From Salibacteraceae bacterium (GTDB taxonomy: Bacteria; Bacteroidota; Bacteroidia; Flavobacteriales_G; Salibacteraceae): a DNA stretch of 64,000 bases. Made by a program: the position numbers and the translations under genes. Position 1 is the first letter of the stretch, and the number at the start of each line of letters is the position of its first letter. The notes beneath the pieces were generated by a model, which did no database searches, was not told where the DNA came from, and was given only the letters and a program-made list of their open reading frames with translations. The stretch spans positions 1 through 64,000 of the forward strand of contig JAGYJZ010000008.1 in the NCBI GenBank assembly GCA_018401875.1, read 5' to 3'. This document shows positions 16,689 to 22,804 of this stretch, one piece after another.

Positions 16689-18440
16689 TTATTCTGCGTC
16701 TTTACCCACGTAGAATTCAACCATTTTTTCGCTGGTATTGCCCAATTTGTCTTTGGCAATTACTTTCACTTCGTACTTCTTGTTTTTTCTAAACTTGCTC
16801 ACTTCAGAGGCATCCAAGGTTTGAGGCGATGAGTATAATTGCGGAGTTGCACCATCTATTCCGTAGTAAATTGATTCTGTTCCCACCTTTTTATCGGTGG
16901 CTGAAACGTACATTCTGGTGTAGTTTGGATAAACCGGTTTGCCGTTTTTAGAACCAATTTGCTCGATACTGAATTTTATGAAAATTTCAGGAGCAGTGTT
17001 GTCGATGTAACAACTTGACGACTTCACCTCTTCGGTATTATTCACATTATCTACCGATTTAAAATCAATGGTGTGGTAACCTTCAGCAGGCAGAGTAAAC
17101 TGTGCATACGATTTAAATCCACCACCATCGGTTTGGTATTCGGTTTTCTGCACTCCAGAAGCATCGTCTCTCATTTTCAAGCTGATGTTGCTCTTGCTTG
17201 TGATGAACAATGTATCGCGATCCATAAATTGTGGATTGGCATAGATGATTCCAGTTTCTGGAGCATCAGCATCCATAAACACGTTGATGTATTTATTGCC
17301 ACTCAAATTCTCAACTTGGTCGTTGGCGTCATACTTCACGCTGTGCACACCCCTATTTGATGGCATTTTAAACTCCGATGAAAAAGTACTTCGCTCGCCA
17401 CCATCGATGCGGTAGTAGATATTTTTTACGCCCGCCTTATTGTCTGTTGCAGCAAGTGCGATGGTCGTGCGCGGAGAAATGTAGAGGTAGTTTCCTTTGT
17501 ATTGATCGCCTTTTACTTCGTGTGTTGGCACAGGAGCAATTTTATCCATGTAAAAACTGAACGTTGAAGCACTTGCTCCCCCATCACCGCCTTCGGTGTT
17601 TTTTACATTGTCTGTGGCATAGTACTTAATGGTGTGTTCGCCATCGCTCAGGCCACCCACATTCACTGGACCTGAATACGCTCTTGCTGAACCACCATCA
17701 AATACATAATACGTGGTGCGCACTCCAGATAGGTTATCGTTGCTGGTCAATTTTACCGATGCCGAAGGCGCTAAAATATTTCCTGCTTTGTTGATTCCAA
17801 CTACTTCGTATTTCGTGGTTGGCGCTGTAAGGTCAACCGTAAATGATGACGATTTGGTGGCTTCGGCATTTCCTACGAAGTCAAACGAATAGTAATACAA
17901 TGTTTGTGCACCTTCTTTCGATGCGCTTACGGCATTCGAATAATCATTATAACCATTGCCAAGCGCATACTGTGTTCCTTTTACTCCTGACACGCCATCC
18001 CTGGCTGAAAGTGTAAAGGTCAGGTTCTTGCCAAAGTAAGTTGTTCCACCGCTGGTGTATCTGGGTGCATCGGCAAATTTGTGGTTTGTTATTGGCGCCA
18101 ATCCGTCAGCGTTTACTTCGTAGAGCACTTCTTGCTCAGGTTGCACGGTTCGTTTTGTTTCAGGATCAACGGCATATTTACTGCGGATGTAGTTTGGCCC
18201 TTCCGTATCGAGGTACATCGGTTCTGAATATGCTGGCACCTTTCCTTTGAGGTCGTAGTTTTCACCTGATGGACTGGTAGAGAATTTCAAGTACATCGGA
18301 AGTTCTTTCTGCACGAAAATGTCGCCATCACCATTGATGTACACCTGCTTCTCATAGGCAGGTTTACTCGGTTCGTTTTGTGCATTTACCTCCAATGCTA
18401 CTCCTGCCATCAATCCACACGCTAGTAAAACTCTCTTCAT
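16689..18440 (-). CDS. Secreted protein with OmpL47-type Ig-like repeats
   Basis: 583 residues with a signal peptide (LLACGLMAGVALEVNAQ). After an N-terminal part of about 120 residues come about five repeats of 85-95 residues. Each has the pattern DxTAPxTxxEV, TIxLxATDNxSGVxxxYYxxDGG and GxHTIKYxAxDNVxNxE, the hallmark of OmpL47/bacterial Ig-like modules. Cysteines are almost absent and no T9SS sorting domain is visible, so it probably stays periplasmic or is otherwise displayed. Ligand unknown. Confidence 0.8.
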   Translation of the reverse strand: MKRVLLACGLMAGVALEVNAQNEPSKPAYEKQVYINGDGDIFVQKELPMYLKFSTSPSGENYDLKGKVPAYSEPMYLDTEGPNYIRSKYAVDPETKRTVQPEQEVLYEVNADGLAPITNHKFADAPRYTSGGTTYFGKNLTFTLSARDGVSGVKGTQYALGNGYNDYSNAVSASKEGAQTLYYYSFDFVGNAEATKSSSFTVDLTAPTTKYEVVGINKAGNILAPSASVKLTSNDNLSGVRTTYYVFDGGSARAYSGPVNVGGLSDGEHTIKYYATDNVKNTEGGDGGASASTFSFYMDKIAPVPTHEVKGDQYKGNYLYISPRTTIALAATDNKAGVKNIYYRIDGGERSTFSSEFKMPSNRGVHSVKYDANDQVENLSGNKYINVFMDADAPETGIIYANPQFMDRDTLFITSKSNISLKMRDDASGVQKTEYQTDGGGFKSYAQFTLPAEGYHTIDFKSVDNVNNTEEVKSSSCYIDNTAPEIFIKFSIEQIGSKNGKPVYPNYTRMYVSATDKKVGTESIYYGIDGATPQLYSSPQTLDASEVSKFRKNKKYEVKVIAKDKLGNTSEKMVEFYVGKDAE

Positions 18441-18720: not shown

Positions 18721-18861
18721 TACGAATTTTTTTCTTGTAAAATCAAAAGAAATGAAGAAGAAATGCGTTTTGACGGCAACAAATTGACTTCAGGCATCTA
18801 CATTGCGTCTTTCATTACAAACCATGGCACTTCTGAAACCATTCGCATTGTTAAGCACTAA
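18721..18861 (+). pseudogene. Fossil T9SS sorting-domain C terminus
   Basis: The frame ending at the TAA at 18859-18861 reads FDGNKLTSGIYIASFITNHG followed by TSETIRIVKH. This is the last part of a type A T9SS sorting domain (LxSGIYIxxF and a final basic strand). No upstream coding is left in that frame beyond about 18721, where degenerate repeat DNA begins. It overlaps the N-terminal codons of the next gene in a different frame. I infer a deleted secreted-protein gene whose tail remains. Confidence 0.65.
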
Positions 18862-20431
18862 ATCGTATAAGTTCATTCTTACAACAGCACTCCTTGTGGG
18901 GTGCTGTTTTTGCTTTCAATCGGTGATAGCGCAGTCTCCTTACTTTTTTAAGAGACTTGAAACCAAGCAAAATGCACTAGAAGGAGGTTTGAATGTTTTA
19001 GAGACTTCACCCTATCAATATTCCGCAATATTTAGTTCAATTTGGCCTAGCAAACCGTCTTGGTATGTCTATCATTTCAGAATTGATGGCAATTCAGGAG
19101 AACTCATCGATAGTGTTTATGTGGGACATAATGACACTTTAAGTGCTTGGCCCGGATTGAAAGGTTCCGCTTTTATCGATAAACAAAACAAAAATATTGT
19201 CATTGGAGGTGGGGGGTATGGAACCCCCATTACGAAAGCAAACCCAGTGGTTATAAAATTTTCCCTTCTTGATGTTGACTCCACATATGTTCTAATGTCA
19301 GAAGTAGACAGTTTCAATTACTATTCACAAGGAAAAGAAACTGTAGATGGAAACTACATTTTCTCAGGACAATCAGATATTGGCCCATCAAAGTATCCAA
19401 ACATGACGTTAACAAAAACAGATACCAACGGTAATGTGCTTTGGGAGGAATTTTATGGTACCGCTTGGCCAGACTATGGGTTAAGTGTCAACCTTAGCAC
19501 GGATGGCGGCTATTTTCTACTGGGAGAATCGGCAGGTTATGGACAAGACTTGTTGTATTCTTCAGATGCCATTCTCATCAAAACCGATAGCTTAGGCAAC
19601 GAGCAATGGCGCAGCACTTGGGGCGGCTATTACAGTGACTGCGCCTGGAATGTTGAACCCTTGGCTGATGGTGGTGCGGTGATTTGCGGCTGCGTTAGTA
19701 ATAACGAGTCCACAGAACAAATTGAAGGCTATATTAGAAGAATTGATCCATTTGGCGGATTGGTTTGGGAAAAAGCATTTGACTTTATACATCCGCTAGA
19801 AGGTGGTTGGCCAAATGTATTTAATATGTGTAGAATTCTACCCAATGGAAATATTGTTACCGCAGGATCTGGCCAAATAGTTACAACGGATTCAATAAGT
19901 GGTAGAGAAGTCCCTTGGCTCACTATTCTATCACCATCGGGCGAGGTACTTATGGATAGGGCATATATCAGCATAATCGGCACTCATTCTTCAGCTGTGT
20001 TTCAAGACATTCGGCTTACGCAAGATGGTGGGTTTATTGCTGGCGGCACCTACAATCCAAGCCAAAACGACTCGGGCAATCAAGATGTGTTCATCTTAAA
20101 ACTGGACGAGCGCGGCTGTGAATATCCTGAGTGTATTCCGCCTTTGGCGGTGGAGGAGCTAAAGGCTGAGAACGTAAATGTTATCGCTTATCCTAATCCT
20201 GCGCGCGACATACTTATTCTAAAATCAGACGCGCCAATCGTTAGCTATAGCATTGTAGATGCCATGGGCAAAAACATGCTGCATCCTTATTCAAAACCCA
20301 GTGGCTCGTCTACTGGCGGTTCTCATCGACTTGAAATTGATGTACGCGGTTTGCTTCCAGGGTTGTATTTCGTTCAACTCAACACTTCTGAGGGGTTGCA
20401 GGTGTTGAAGTTTGTGAGAGCTGCGAGGTAG
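18824..20431 (+). CDS. T9SS-sorted secreted protein, beta-propeller-like
   Basis: 535 residues if the ATG at 18824 is used; an in-frame TTG at 18803 would add seven residues. The hydrophobic signal segment (FILTTALLVGCC) ends at VIAQS. The body has repeated blade-like segments containing DGGYFLLGES, DGGAVICGC, NGNIVTAGSG and DGGFIAGGTY about 60-90 residues apart, typical of secreted beta-propellers. The C terminus is a type A sorting domain (AYPNPARDILILKS, LLPGLYFVQL). The start overlaps a fossil sorting domain, so the leader may have been rebuilt. Ligand or activity unknown. Confidence 0.82.
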   Translation: MALLKPFALLSTKSYKFILTTALLVGCCFCFQSVIAQSPYFFKRLETKQNALEGGLNVLETSPYQYSAIFSSIWPSKPSWYVYHFRIDGNSGELIDSVYVGHNDTLSAWPGLKGSAFIDKQNKNIVIGGGGYGTPITKANPVVIKFSLLDVDSTYVLMSEVDSFNYYSQGKETVDGNYIFSGQSDIGPSKYPNMTLTKTDTNGNVLWEEFYGTAWPDYGLSVNLSTDGGYFLLGESAGYGQDLLYSSDAILIKTDSLGNEQWRSTWGGYYSDCAWNVEPLADGGAVICGCVSNNESTEQIEGYIRRIDPFGGLVWEKAFDFIHPLEGGWPNVFNMCRILPNGNIVTAGSGQIVTTDSISGREVPWLTILSPSGEVLMDRAYISIIGTHSSAVFQDIRLTQDGGFIAGGTYNPSQNDSGNQDVFILKLDERGCEYPECIPPLAVEELKAENVNVIAYPNPARDILILKSDAPIVSYSIVDAMGKNMLHPYSKPSGSSTGGSHRLEIDVRGLLPGLYFVQLNTSEGLQVLKFVRAAR

Positions 20432-20440
20432 GTACTTGTC

Positions 20441-20613
20441 TGTCACTTCGAGTGGCGCGACCATAGGGAGCGATGTATCGAGAAGCAGACAGACATTAGA
20501 AACTTTCCTAGTCGTTCTCGCATCGCCTGCGGCAAGCCTTTGGCGGCCGAGGGATACGATCGGTGGGCTTTCGCGTTGAAAAGGTTAATCAACCGCGATC
20601 ACTCGAACTGACA
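20441..20613. repeat. Inverted-repeat unit U1 (no gene)
   Basis: 173 bp. Outer arms TGTCACTTCGAGTG and CACTCGAACTGACA are complementary at 13 of 14 positions; inner arms TATCGAGAA and TTCTCG...GATA are complementary but split by a 32-bp GC-rich module. Between them lie GCAGACAGACA and a short centre. It begins 10 nt after the stop of the T9SS protein. A 14-nt spacer (TAGATTTTATTGTT) joins it to the next unit. Confidence 0.85.
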
Positions 20614-20627
20614 TAGATTTTATTGTT

Positions 20628-21090
20628 TGTCACTTCGAGTGGCGCGACCGTAGGGAGCGATGTATCGAGAAGCAGACAGACAGTGCACTAAATAAACTTT
20701 TTCTTGCTTAAATTCTGAATTCGGTCCCAATCATCATTGATTAAGGCTTGCTTTTTGGCTTTTGACCATTTTTTCAATTGTTTCTCTTTTTCAATGGCAT
20801 GTTCTATTCTGGTGAAAGAACCAAACCATTTTAATTCAACGGGTCTTTTAGAAAAGGTATAACTTTCCTTATTCGATCCGCTTATATGTTCCTTTAGTCT
20901 TCTTTCGAGGTCATTTGTGACTCCAGTGTAAAATGATCCATCGGAACATTCTAATATGTAAACGAAATATGCCATTCTGGATGAGCAAAATAATCAAGAA
21001 TTATTAAACTTTTAGCATAGTCGTTCTCGATACGATCGGTAGGCTTTTGCGTTGTAAAGATTGTTTCAATTGCGATCACTCGAACTGACA
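20628..21090. mobile_element. Inverted-repeat element carrying a GIY-YIG nuclease gene (unit U2)
   Basis: The left arm (20628-about 20684) is nearly identical to the left arms of U1 and U4, and the right arm (21018-21090) to that of U3. The GIY-YIG gene lies between them where U1, U3 and U4 have only about 20 nt. Outer ends TGTCACTTCGAGTG / CACTCGAACTGACA and inner ends TATCGAGAA / TTCTCGATA are inverted repeats. I infer a 463-bp autonomous element with the other units as gene-less derivatives. No transposase is present, and no target-site duplication is evident. Confidence 0.6.
20688..20975 (-). CDS. GIY-YIG nuclease-family protein
   Basis: 95 residues starting MAYFVYILECSDGSFYTGVT. The GIY and YIG motifs appear as VYIL and YTG, followed by NDLERRLKEH (catalytic-Arg helix) and IEHAIEKEKQLKKW (with the metal-ligand Glu), the UPF0213/YhbQ-type single-domain layout. 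The domain cuts DNA with one metal ion. The tail is very basic (KAKKQALIND, SKKKFI), fitting DNA binding. It is embedded between the arms of an inverted-repeat unit, which suggests it acts on that repeat, as RAYT proteins do on REP sequences; that is an inference. Confidence 0.88.
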   Translation of the reverse strand: MAYFVYILECSDGSFYTGVTNDLERRLKEHISGSNKESYTFSKRPVELKWFGSFTRIEHAIEKEKQLKKWSKAKKQALINDDWDRIQNLSKKKFI

Positions 21091-21104
21091 TAGATTTTAT
21101 TGTC

Positions 21105-21252
21105 TGTCACTTCGAGTGTTTTTCGAAGCTTCAGCGGAGAAAAAAGTATCGAGAAGCAGACAGACATTGGACACTTTCCTAGTCGTTCTCGATACGATCG
21201 GTAAGTTTTTGCGTTGTAAAGATTATTTCAATTGCGATCACTCGAACTGACA
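21105..21252. repeat. Inverted-repeat unit U3 (variant left-arm module)
   Basis: 148 bp with intact outer and inner arms. Between CGAGTG and TATCGAGAA it carries an AT-flanked module (CGAAGCTTCAGCGGAG at 21124-21139) instead of the GCGCGACC...AGGGAGCGATG module of U1, U2 and U4. The right arm lacks the 32-bp GC-rich module. The spacer before it (TAGATTTTATTGTC) is nearly the one between U1 and U2. Confidence 0.85.
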
Positions 21253-21269
21253 GGGTGATGCTCATTGGC

Positions 21270-21452
21270 TGTCACTTCGAGTGGCGCGACCGCAGGGAGC
21301 GATGTATCGAGAAGCAGACAGACATTGGACACTTTCCTAGTCGTTCTCGCATCGCCTGCGGCAAGCCTTTGGCGGCCGAGGGATACGATCCGCCAGCTGT
21401 CGGATCACTCGAAGCGCCTCTGCAGAGCAGCTTTAGCGCTCGCAGACTGACA
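21270..21452. repeat. Inverted-repeat unit U4 (insertion in right arm)
   Basis: 183 bp. The left arm matches U1 and U2, and the inner right arm carries the 32-bp GC-rich module as in U1. The outer right arm is split: CACTCGA, then about 33 extra bases, then ACTGACA. The insert is itself partly self-complementary (CTGCAGAGCAG). Confidence 0.8.
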
Positions 21453-21466
21453 TTGAGATTATTGTC

Positions 21467-21513
21467 TGTCACTCCGAGTGGCGCGACCACAGGGAGTGAT
21501 GTATCGAGAAGCC
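21467..21513. repeat. Left half of an inverted-repeat unit (U5)
   Basis: TGTCACTCCGAGTG to TATCGAGAAGC, one mismatch in the outer arm relative to the others. The right half is missing; the rplT terminator follows directly, so the unit was truncated there or inserted only in part. Confidence 0.75.
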
Positions 21514-21530
21514 AACACCCCCAAAACAAA

Positions 21531-21563
21531 AAACCCGCACTGAATAAACAGTTGCGGGTTTTA
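21531..21563 (-). terminator. Rho-independent terminator of the thrS-infC-rpmI-rplT operon
   Basis: On the minus strand AAACCCGCAAC pairs with the GTGCGGGTTT copy across a 10-nt loop, followed by TTTTTTGTTTTGG. It lies 22 nt past the rplT stop. Confidence 0.85.
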
Positions 21564-21584
21564 AAATGAGTTTGAAATGAAATC

Positions 21585-21929
21585 TTACTTTACCTTCTCG
21601 ATGATGGCTTTGAAAGCTTCCGGGTTATTCATTGCTAAATCAGCAAGAACTTTTCTGTTAAGTTCGATTCCTGATTTGTTCAATTTACCCATGAATGCGC
21701 TGTAAGACAATCCGTGCTCTCTGGTTCCTGCGTTGATACGCTGAATCCAAAGTGAGCGGAAGTTTCTTTTCTTATGCTTACGTCCAACATACGAATAGCC
21801 CATTGCTTTTTCAACGGCATTCTTTGATACGGTCCACACATTTTTTCTACGACCAAAGTATCCTTTGGCCTGTTTCATGATTTTCTTGCGTCTTGCGCGT
21901 GACGCTACGCTGTTTACTGATCTTGGCAT
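21585..21929 (-). CDS. rplT: 50S ribosomal protein L20
   Basis: 114 residues, normal length: [32 protein letters not shown], then [15 protein letters not shown] in its local variant form ([16 protein letters not shown]). L20 is an early assembly protein of the large subunit and in several bacteria represses its own operon by binding mRNA. I see no clear L20-binding pseudoknot in the 101-nt space before it. Last gene of the thrS operon. Confidence 0.97.
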
Positions 21930-22030
21930 TTCTAATTTTGCTTTTTGGTTGTAAGCGCTCTCATTTCACTGAGGGACTTTATGCTCACACCCTGGTTAAA
22001 CACGATGTTCACCTTGCGATGAACAAACCT

Positions 22031-22228
22031 TTATTTAAGAGACAACAACTTTAAGATGTTATTCATGTCTCCTGGATGAACAAGCGTTGTTTTCGTCAAT
22101 CTTCTCTTTCTATCTTTCGACTTCTTAGTTAAGATGTGACTCTTAAACGCGTGCTTTCTCTTGATTTTCCCGGTACCTGTAAAGCGGAAACGCTTCTTAG
22201 CACTGGAATTGGTTTTCATTTTAGGCAT
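22031..22228 (-). CDS. rpmI: 50S ribosomal protein L35
   Basis: 65 residues, normal length: [20 protein letters not shown], a strongly basic protein ending [10 protein letters not shown]. It lies between infC and rplT, the order conserved across most bacteria. Confidence 0.97.
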
Positions 22229-22264
22229 CGCTTCCTATGTATTAAACTATTGATTAATTACTAC

Positions 22265-22804
22265 TTACTTTTTCTTCTTTGGGGCGAGCATCATAATCAT
22301 GCGCTTCCCTTCTAACTTCGGCATTTGCTCTACCATTCCTACTTCTTCCACTTCGGTGGCTAACTTCAACAACAAGATTTCACCTTTGTCTTTGAATAAA
22401 ATAGAACGGCCTTTAAAGAACACAAACGCCTTGATCTTCGATCCTTCTTCTAAAAACTTCAGTGCATGCTTCTTTTTGAATTCATAGTCATGCTCATCGG
22501 TGTTAGGCCCAAATCGAATCTCTTTTACAACAACCTTTTGCGCCTTGCTTTTGATCTCCTTTTGCTTCTTCTTTTGGTCGTACAAGAATTTCTTGTAATC
22601 CAAAATCTTCACAACAGGTGGATCAGCTTTTTCAGAAATGATAACGAGGTCAAGACCAGCCTCCTTGGCTAGCTTTAACGCTTCACTGGTTGGCAAAACT
22701 TGAGGTTCACCATCTCCTACAATTCTTACACGCGGAACCCGGATGTTTTCGTTGATCGGGTGTTCCGGTTCTTCTCTTCTCGGTTTTCTGAACGGCTTTC
22801 TAAT
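22265..22804 (-). CDS. infC: Translation initiation factor IF-3, AUU start
   Basis: 179 residues. Family sequence extends upstream of the first ATG-initiated frame: [20 protein letters not shown] is coded without a stop and belongs to the IF3 N domain. In this frame a TAA lies at 22811-22813, leaving only GAA, GAT and ATT before the family sequence, so the start must be ATT at 22804-22802. IF3 prevents premature subunit joining and proofreads start codons; an AUU start lets it repress its own translation, as established in E. coli. The C domain ends in MLAPKKKK. Confidence 0.95.

Follow-up and report, generated by a model that had tools for sequence, protein, structure and literature searches.

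A small GIY-YIG nuclease gene keeps company with GTC-tagged REP palindromes and is a strong candidate for their mobiliser

Results

The window (the whole stretch of DNA that was analysed, 64,000 nucleotides) lies on contig C35 of a 2.62-Mb genome in 36 contigs and carries a row of palindrome units of two hairpins each, among which the unit at 20628-21090 alone holds a gene, for a GIY-YIG nuclease of 95 amino acids. This gene (20688-20975, minus strand; UPF0213-like, identified by Pfam PF01541, structures and invariant residues) occupies the spacer between the inner feet of the two hairpins of unit 2. On its 3′ side stands a C-ended, GTC-tagged REP hairpin (20628-20685, plus strand), which matches the hairpin rule given below and is 98% identical to the left hairpin of unit 1, and on its 5′ side a G-ended, GTC-tagged one (21018-21090, minus strand), which is 96% identical to 21180-21252. 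Three further units are gene-less: unit 1 (20441-20613) joins a C-ended hairpin at 20441-20496 to an inverted G-ended one at about 20509-20613 that has an extra inner hairpin, unit 3 (21105-21252) a C-ended hairpin at 21105-21170 to an inverted G-ended one at 21180-21252, and unit 4 (21270-21452) a C-ended hairpin at 21270-21326 to an inverted G-ended one whose end is split. A half unit follows at 21467-21513 (plus strand), a single C-ended hairpin (TGTCACTCCGAGTG...) with 91% identity over 46 nt to 20628-20673. The coordinates of the units, their ends and the position of the gene are all as the original prediction had placed them. It had also described the right end of unit 4 as split by an insert; the split, in which the insert separates tag from stem (21414-21452), is there, but it is no unique case, since the same split end recurs at locus L012 on contig C1, and it perhaps represents a nested subfamily of repeat ends.

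The labels 'type I/II', 'C-/G-ended' and 'clade A/B' were coined in the present analysis. A type-I unit, the kind seen in the window, is a pair of imperfect hairpins inverted relative to each other, both with the GTC tag pointing outward, and not one long inverted repeat, as the 'long inverted-repeat unit' proposed earlier would have it. The C-ended form reads GTCA-CTTCGAG...CGAGAAG, i.e. GTCACTTCGAG...CGAGAAG, and the G-ended form, on the opposite strand, GTCA-GTTCGAG...CGAGAAC, i.e. GTCAGTTCGAG...CGAGAAC. Two G.A mismatches lie inside the outer stem of the window hairpins; tandem mismatches of the form 5′-pyrimidine-GA-purine-3′ are known to form stable sheared pairs in DNA. The pattern TTCGAGTN{4,34}GTATCGAGAA has 11 copies in the window's own genome against 0 for a reversed-pattern control, and therefore exceeds chance. 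The stem-closing base pair is complementary in 195 of 217 type-I copies (the window plus 79 other loci), and single hairpins show no unusual stability in a DNA folding model (six hairpins, z from -1.08 to +0.43); what supports the stem is base complementarity, and folding energy gives no signal. Where type-I hairpins stand inverted beside each other, 79 of 85 pairs combine a C-ended with a G-ended form, about half being expected under random end pairing, and the two hairpins of a unit are thus distinguishable ends. A search of 20300-22400 against Rfam gave no family up to E 1.

The 95-residue frame matches Pfam PF01541 at E 4.7e-19, and this is its only Pfam domain, with neither a second domain nor a Y1_Tnp match in the 95 residues. 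Because Y6, Y16, R26, H30, E64 and K75 are invariant in 110/110 aligned relatives, the nuclease centre appears intact. The nearest solved chains are the UPF0213 structures 1zg2 and 1ywl (sequence match to 1zg2, E 5.4e-22); a Foldseek search with an AlphaFold model of the protein (pLDDT 85) likewise returned these two first (E 1e-5 and 8e-4), followed by the branched-DNA nuclease Slx1-Slx4 at E 0.02 and weaker and also by UvrC. Judged by its sequence and its predicted fold, the window protein is a UPF0213/Slx1-like GIY-YIG protein.

For a first set, a PF01541 search of 41 genomes (the window's own included) and 80 loci gave at least 85 distinct proteins of at least 60 amino acids, six small GIY frames below 60 amino acids being excluded. 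The tree of these proteins splits in two: clade B (31 rows) contains the window protein and has a tRNA gene within 600 bp in 0/31, against 35/54 for the 54 rows of clade A. The flanks of clade-B genes share a common form, [GTC tag]-stem-GAG-loop-CGA-stem′, and a hairpin rule derived from these flanks finds hairpins within 250 bp of 24/32 clade-B genes (14 on both sides) and 7/55 clade-A genes in the same training set, and of 15/148 control open reading frames (ORFs) on either side and none on both, the controls having at least 100 bp of intergenic DNA on both sides. A multicopy flank on either side was seen for 12/32 GIY genes and 28/148 controls, a comparison that is uninformative for want of DNA per genome.

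The test that counts is the one made out of sample, on the best 80 of at least 506 contig-scan matches to an 11-protein alignment. One locus (L134) was removed beforehand as a duplicate, its contig having the same length as training contig G015:C3, which left 79, and 75 of these 79 have a GTC-tagged hairpin, 56 of them on both sides. Another locus (L202) was retained despite 94% identity to training locus L065, whose flanks it shares; leaving L202 out gives 74/78. The four loci missed by the rule (L148, L165, L185 and L198) have hairpins when read by eye, with a stem mismatch, so that the observation named in advance as fatal to the prediction, GIY-YIG homologues lacking the arms, did not occur in this set. 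At a loop limit of 60, hairpins lie on either side of 75/79 GIY genes and on both sides of 59/79, against 19/51 and 6/51 for control ORFs with flanks separate from those of the GIY gene. A first control set, which contains neighbours with common flanks, gave 59/102 and 10/102, and all control ORFs 158/485 and 15/485. Inner GAG/CGA, the tandem G.A, is found at 53/79 genes, with 19 for the next distinct combination and a median of 1 over 256 combinations; the mismatch is therefore specific. GTC stands at the foot of 152/172 hairpins nearest the genes, against 97/179 rule matches far from genes, and orientation is convergent at 30 of the 59 two-sided loci (loop limit 60). The association of the GIY-YIG gene with tagged hairpins is general.

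A second hairpin form, CTGAGC..GTCGAAG, defines type II. Among 110 proteins (frames with internal stops, shorter than 70 amino acids or identical were left out of the tree), 44 have type I, 47 type II, seven another form and 12 none. Repeat type changes 16 times on this tree against a mean of 48.9 after shuffling, with 0/200 shuffles as low, so hairpin type follows nuclease phylogeny. Across 198 Bacteroidota genomes the nuclease profile matches 122 at a threshold of E 1e-8; at E 1e-23, the limit that we set for a close homologue, it matches 36. The type-I pattern is present in 16/36 genomes with a close homologue and 4/162 without (Fisher 1.6e-10, genome kinship being ignored), and three of those four appear to share one related, probably coding, sequence. 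At least two type-II copies occur in 19/36 genomes with a close homologue and 24/162 without; of the 13 among these 24 that were searched for GIY-YIG, nine have a small GIY frame and four yielded no intact one: G168 (26 type-II copies), G085 (seven), G073 (five) and G204 (six), the last with a weak split match only. Neither hairpin pattern was found in 8/36 genomes having a close homologue.

Clade A consists mostly of GIY-YIG genes of 80-90 amino acids beside tRNA genes (in the window's own genome L002/L058, L003/L083 and L004/L098; others among L052-L131). A same-strand tRNA lies within 200 bp of 32/55 of them against 22/944 control ORFs, and at 19 of 36 loci tested the tRNA 3′ half is partly duplicated, with the second copy across the gene. 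Within several subclades the tRNA isotype is the same (Met, Pro, Ala, Arg, Asp or Val, judged by eye and with exceptions). Elsewhere among the small GIY-YIG genes we saw two tandem arrays with repeated flanks, one of four (L091:7998-9443) and one of five (L129:7935-9823) very similar copies, and at L065:8277-8312 and L069:412-447 a type-II repeat (CCCTTCGACAAGCTCAGGG) encodes the C-terminus of the GIY protein, DPSTSSG, at the end of the reading frame.

The main rival to a single system of gene and palindromes is that an independent, homing-type GIY-YIG gene lands in hairpin DNA and that the REPs, spread by other means, are mere landing sites. GIY-YIG enzymes are classic homing endonucleases, the sister clade adjoins tRNA genes, a structured target presumably not dispersed by clade A, and some genomes have the hairpins and no intact small GIY gene. 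The concentration of hairpins in genomes with the gene, and the way in which hairpin type tracks the nuclease tree, speak against it, as do sites compared among relatives. The neighbour genes of two GIY loci in one Flavobacterium genome were searched in 121 genomes of the genus, where they matched in 57 and 48, and the best 30 of each were examined. At site 1 the GIY gene is present in 0/30; the next gene was found in 29, and these 29 have no hairpin by the strict rule and one by the relaxed rule, a solo degenerate REP in L277, while six gaps read by eye showed a REP-like terminator also in L276 and L286. At site 2 the gene is present in 3/30, all three with hairpins, and the other 26 scored have neither gene nor hairpin under either rule, which argues that the hairpins were not a standing target there. 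Over both sites, repeats are found in 3/3 relatives with the gene and 1/55 scored relatives without it. The original prediction was also to fall if the gene predated the arms; at these two sites the gene is never without hairpins among the relatives examined. At one site the modules of L307 and L329 are of type II and those of L257 and L305 of type I, and these are separate arrivals. We consider the landing-site explanation unlikely, weakened as it is by hairpin-free empty sites and by co-evolution, and kept alive by the tRNA-associated clade.

For the window itself, rplT was found in 11 relatives of its genus. In nine (L244-L246 and L248-L253) about 100 bp separate rplT from the counterpart of the gene at 16689-18440, and nuclease and palindromes are absent after rplT when read by eye; in L247 the contig ends after rplT, and in G006 some 800 bp with one degenerate hairpin follow. 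The insert in the window also contains an ORF at 18803-20431, so this locus alone cannot date the gene relative to the arms, and the intergenic flanks at the compared sites are too diverged to place junctions or define target-site duplications.

Among 52 gene pairs of at least 75% amino acid identity, in a synteny comparison made without control genes, 44 share no flanking genes, six share both sides and two could not be scored. The 44 of 50 scorable pairs without common flanks fit movement, and the six of 50 at the same place between species also fit vertical inheritance. These pairs bear on another explanation, in which the protein is a housekeeping structure-specific nuclease or cruciform clearer and the nearby REPs merely transcription terminators. 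Its fold kinship with Slx1 and UPF0213 proteins would suit such a role, and intergenic hairpins can serve as terminators; yet the hairpins flank most genes on both sides (the 56/79 above), most often inverted, the presence of the gene is patchy (122/198 genomes at the looser threshold and 36 at the stricter) and close pairs mostly lack common neighbours. We regard a housekeeping role as very improbable.

Still less credible, to the point of being nearly negligible, is that these are ordinary REPs of the HUH transposase RAYT and that the GIY gene hitchhikes on them. A Y1_Tnp match is indeed present in 20/24 genomes bearing these hairpins (76 matches in total), and one such match in the window genome lies 1.8-2.7 kb from type-II hairpins; however, no hairpin was found within 250 bp of a RAYT-like gene at any of the 20 loci examined (of the 76), many of which have other palindromes in their flanks, and 4/16 type-I genomes lack a Y1_Tnp match, including G069 with 25 copies and G124 with 18. 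A RAYT origin of the GTC-tagged REPs was accordingly rejected on those 0/20 loci. In the window's own genome one RAYT-like gene (L366, G000:C31:195500-204000) is surrounded by ACCCCTTCGGGGT palindromes, and this genome therefore appears to carry a second REP system.

The pairing of gene and hairpins recurs in several bacterial phyla, the genome scan having reached Ignavibacteriota, Nitrospirota and Nitrospinota. The window protein itself has no match in a plasmid collection, and the clade-B protein L101 matches 33 records there, 27 from alpha-Proteobacterial genera, of which we examined 14 loci, 12 of them Proteobacterial. Two of the records, NZ_AP026896.1 (Aeromonas caviae, 4.9 Mb) and NZ_CP119140.1 (Neisseria gonorrhoeae, 2.17 Mb), are chromosome-like in size. 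By a rule fixed before the flanks were seen, and looser than the published description of CGTC REPs (CGTC or TGTC tag, perfect stem of at least 6 bp, loop of 3-8), CGTC-type REPs lie within 300 bp of 10/14 genes, on both sides of eight, all 10 being among the 12 Proteobacterial loci; the background windows, drawn from these loci without matching to intergenic DNA and for the most part coding, gave 10/138. The Planktothrix and Spirosoma homologues have hairpins of the G.A rule in place of the CGTC type, and neither kind occurs at L394 and L396. In Azospirillum lipoferum 4B the GIY-YIG gene stands between sufB and sufC, and in Planktothrix agardhii (L392) a GIY-YIG gene with G.A hairpins has an MmeI-type restriction gene on one side and drmA of DISARM on the other.

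Discussion

We propose that gene and palindromes belong together as a single system, in which a small GIY-YIG nuclease is dedicated to a REP superfamily, and put the probability of this reading at roughly 0.75. The nuclease gene is found among GTC-tagged hairpins, mostly between inverted ones with their tags outward, and gene-less copies are dispersed. The original prediction, of REP palindromes served by a GIY-YIG enzyme of their own on the model of RAYT-REP, is supported by the homologue loci, the tree and the compared sites; its other wording, an autonomous element with MITE-like derivatives, is plausible only. Several observations count against a single system: neither pattern occurs in eight of the 36 genomes that have a close homologue, four genomes (G168, G085, G204 and G073) have hairpins and no intact GIY gene, convergence is not universal, L277 carries a solo REP, the GTC tag is also found far from genes (the 97/179 above), single hairpins have ordinary stability and some genes stay put.

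GIY-YIG enzymes hydrolyse DNA and form no covalent intermediate of the HUH type, so movement of a REP unit would need host repair or replication. In the mechanism that we infer, the nuclease, a relative of the Slx1 fold, would recognise an extruded or single-stranded REP hairpin and nick or cut it, probably at the GTC-tagged foot. Host repair or replication would then copy the cut unit in a homing-like manner rather than by strand transfer, and such mobility could yield both hairpin-gene-hairpin modules and gene-less pairs.

A wider proposition, which we consider about as likely as not, is that the small GIY-YIG nucleases make up a broad class of selfish genes guided by structure. Through hydrolytic cleavage of the tagged hairpin, one branch would be the dedicated mobiliser of CGTC/TGTC-tagged REPs in Bacteroidota, Proteobacteria, Nitrospinota and others, and a sister branch would have specialised on tRNA genes isotype by isotype, duplicating tRNA 3′ halves.

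Among known proteins, those of the UPF0213/Slx1-like group (1zg2, 1ywl and YhbQ) share both fold and sequence family with the window protein. A review assigns YhbQ to the Slx1 family, and its passages on Slx1 and YhbQ mention no association with repeats. GIY-YIG homing genes of the I-TevI type resemble the present gene in being small nuclease genes within a presumed target; they differ in that the window gene lies outside any intron or intein and has no second Pfam domain, and in that its target would be a multicopy palindrome. Among the matches listed in the open-access PMC literature, which was the scope of the search to the exclusion of preprints and subscription papers, no link between GIY-YIG and REPs is described: two papers that mention both RAYT and GIY-YIG draw none in the portions available, 'GIY' is absent from the available text of PMC6006769 and PMC8049555, and 'palindrom' from that of a phylogenomic study of GIY-YIG (PMC1564403).

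REPs are widespread bacterial repeats. The closest published relative of the hairpins described here is the CGTC-tagged superfamily, in which dispersed GTC-tagged hairpins often form inverted head-to-head dimers (Di Nocera, De Gregorio and Rocco 2013, PMC3733652), several families form heterodimers and a TGTC variant of the tag is described (PMC3733652). The tag is common to both, with TGTC in the window units and CGTC or TGTC at the plasmid-collection loci, and hairpins of the published form flank most of the Proteobacterial homologues examined. The published hairpins have stems of 8-9 bp, loops of 4-5 nt and mostly CCA tails (PMC3733652). Compared with the text of that paper, the window hairpins differ in their 4-bp outer stem, tandem G.A and long inner part, so that the window type does not fit these stem and loop lengths, and in their lack of a CCA tail; the Proteobacterial hairpins examined have perfect stems and short loops, and the tail is present in most of the copies. 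When REPs were surveyed in 2013, an enzyme (RAYT) was known for the GTAG superfamily alone; none is reported in that survey for CGTC REPs, and 'GIY' does not occur in the text (PMC3733652). For this family, one of the two large ones among bacterial REPs, the GIY-YIG enzyme is a strong candidate as the missing mobiliser. Its recurrent, co-evolving gene makes the question of the missing enzyme testable with one protein and one oligonucleotide.

The layout is that of RAYT-REP systems (REPtrons), with an enzyme gene flanked by tagged inverted REPs and gene-less REP pairs elsewhere. The two differ in the tag, GTAG there and GTC here (152/172 nearest hairpins), and in the enzyme, which here is a hydrolytic GIY-YIG protein and not an HUH/tyrosine Y1_Tnp transposase. 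If the proposal is correct, recruitment of a nuclease to drive palindromic repeats has happened a second time, with an enzyme of unrelated chemistry that cuts by hydrolysis where the HUH enzymes transfer strands.
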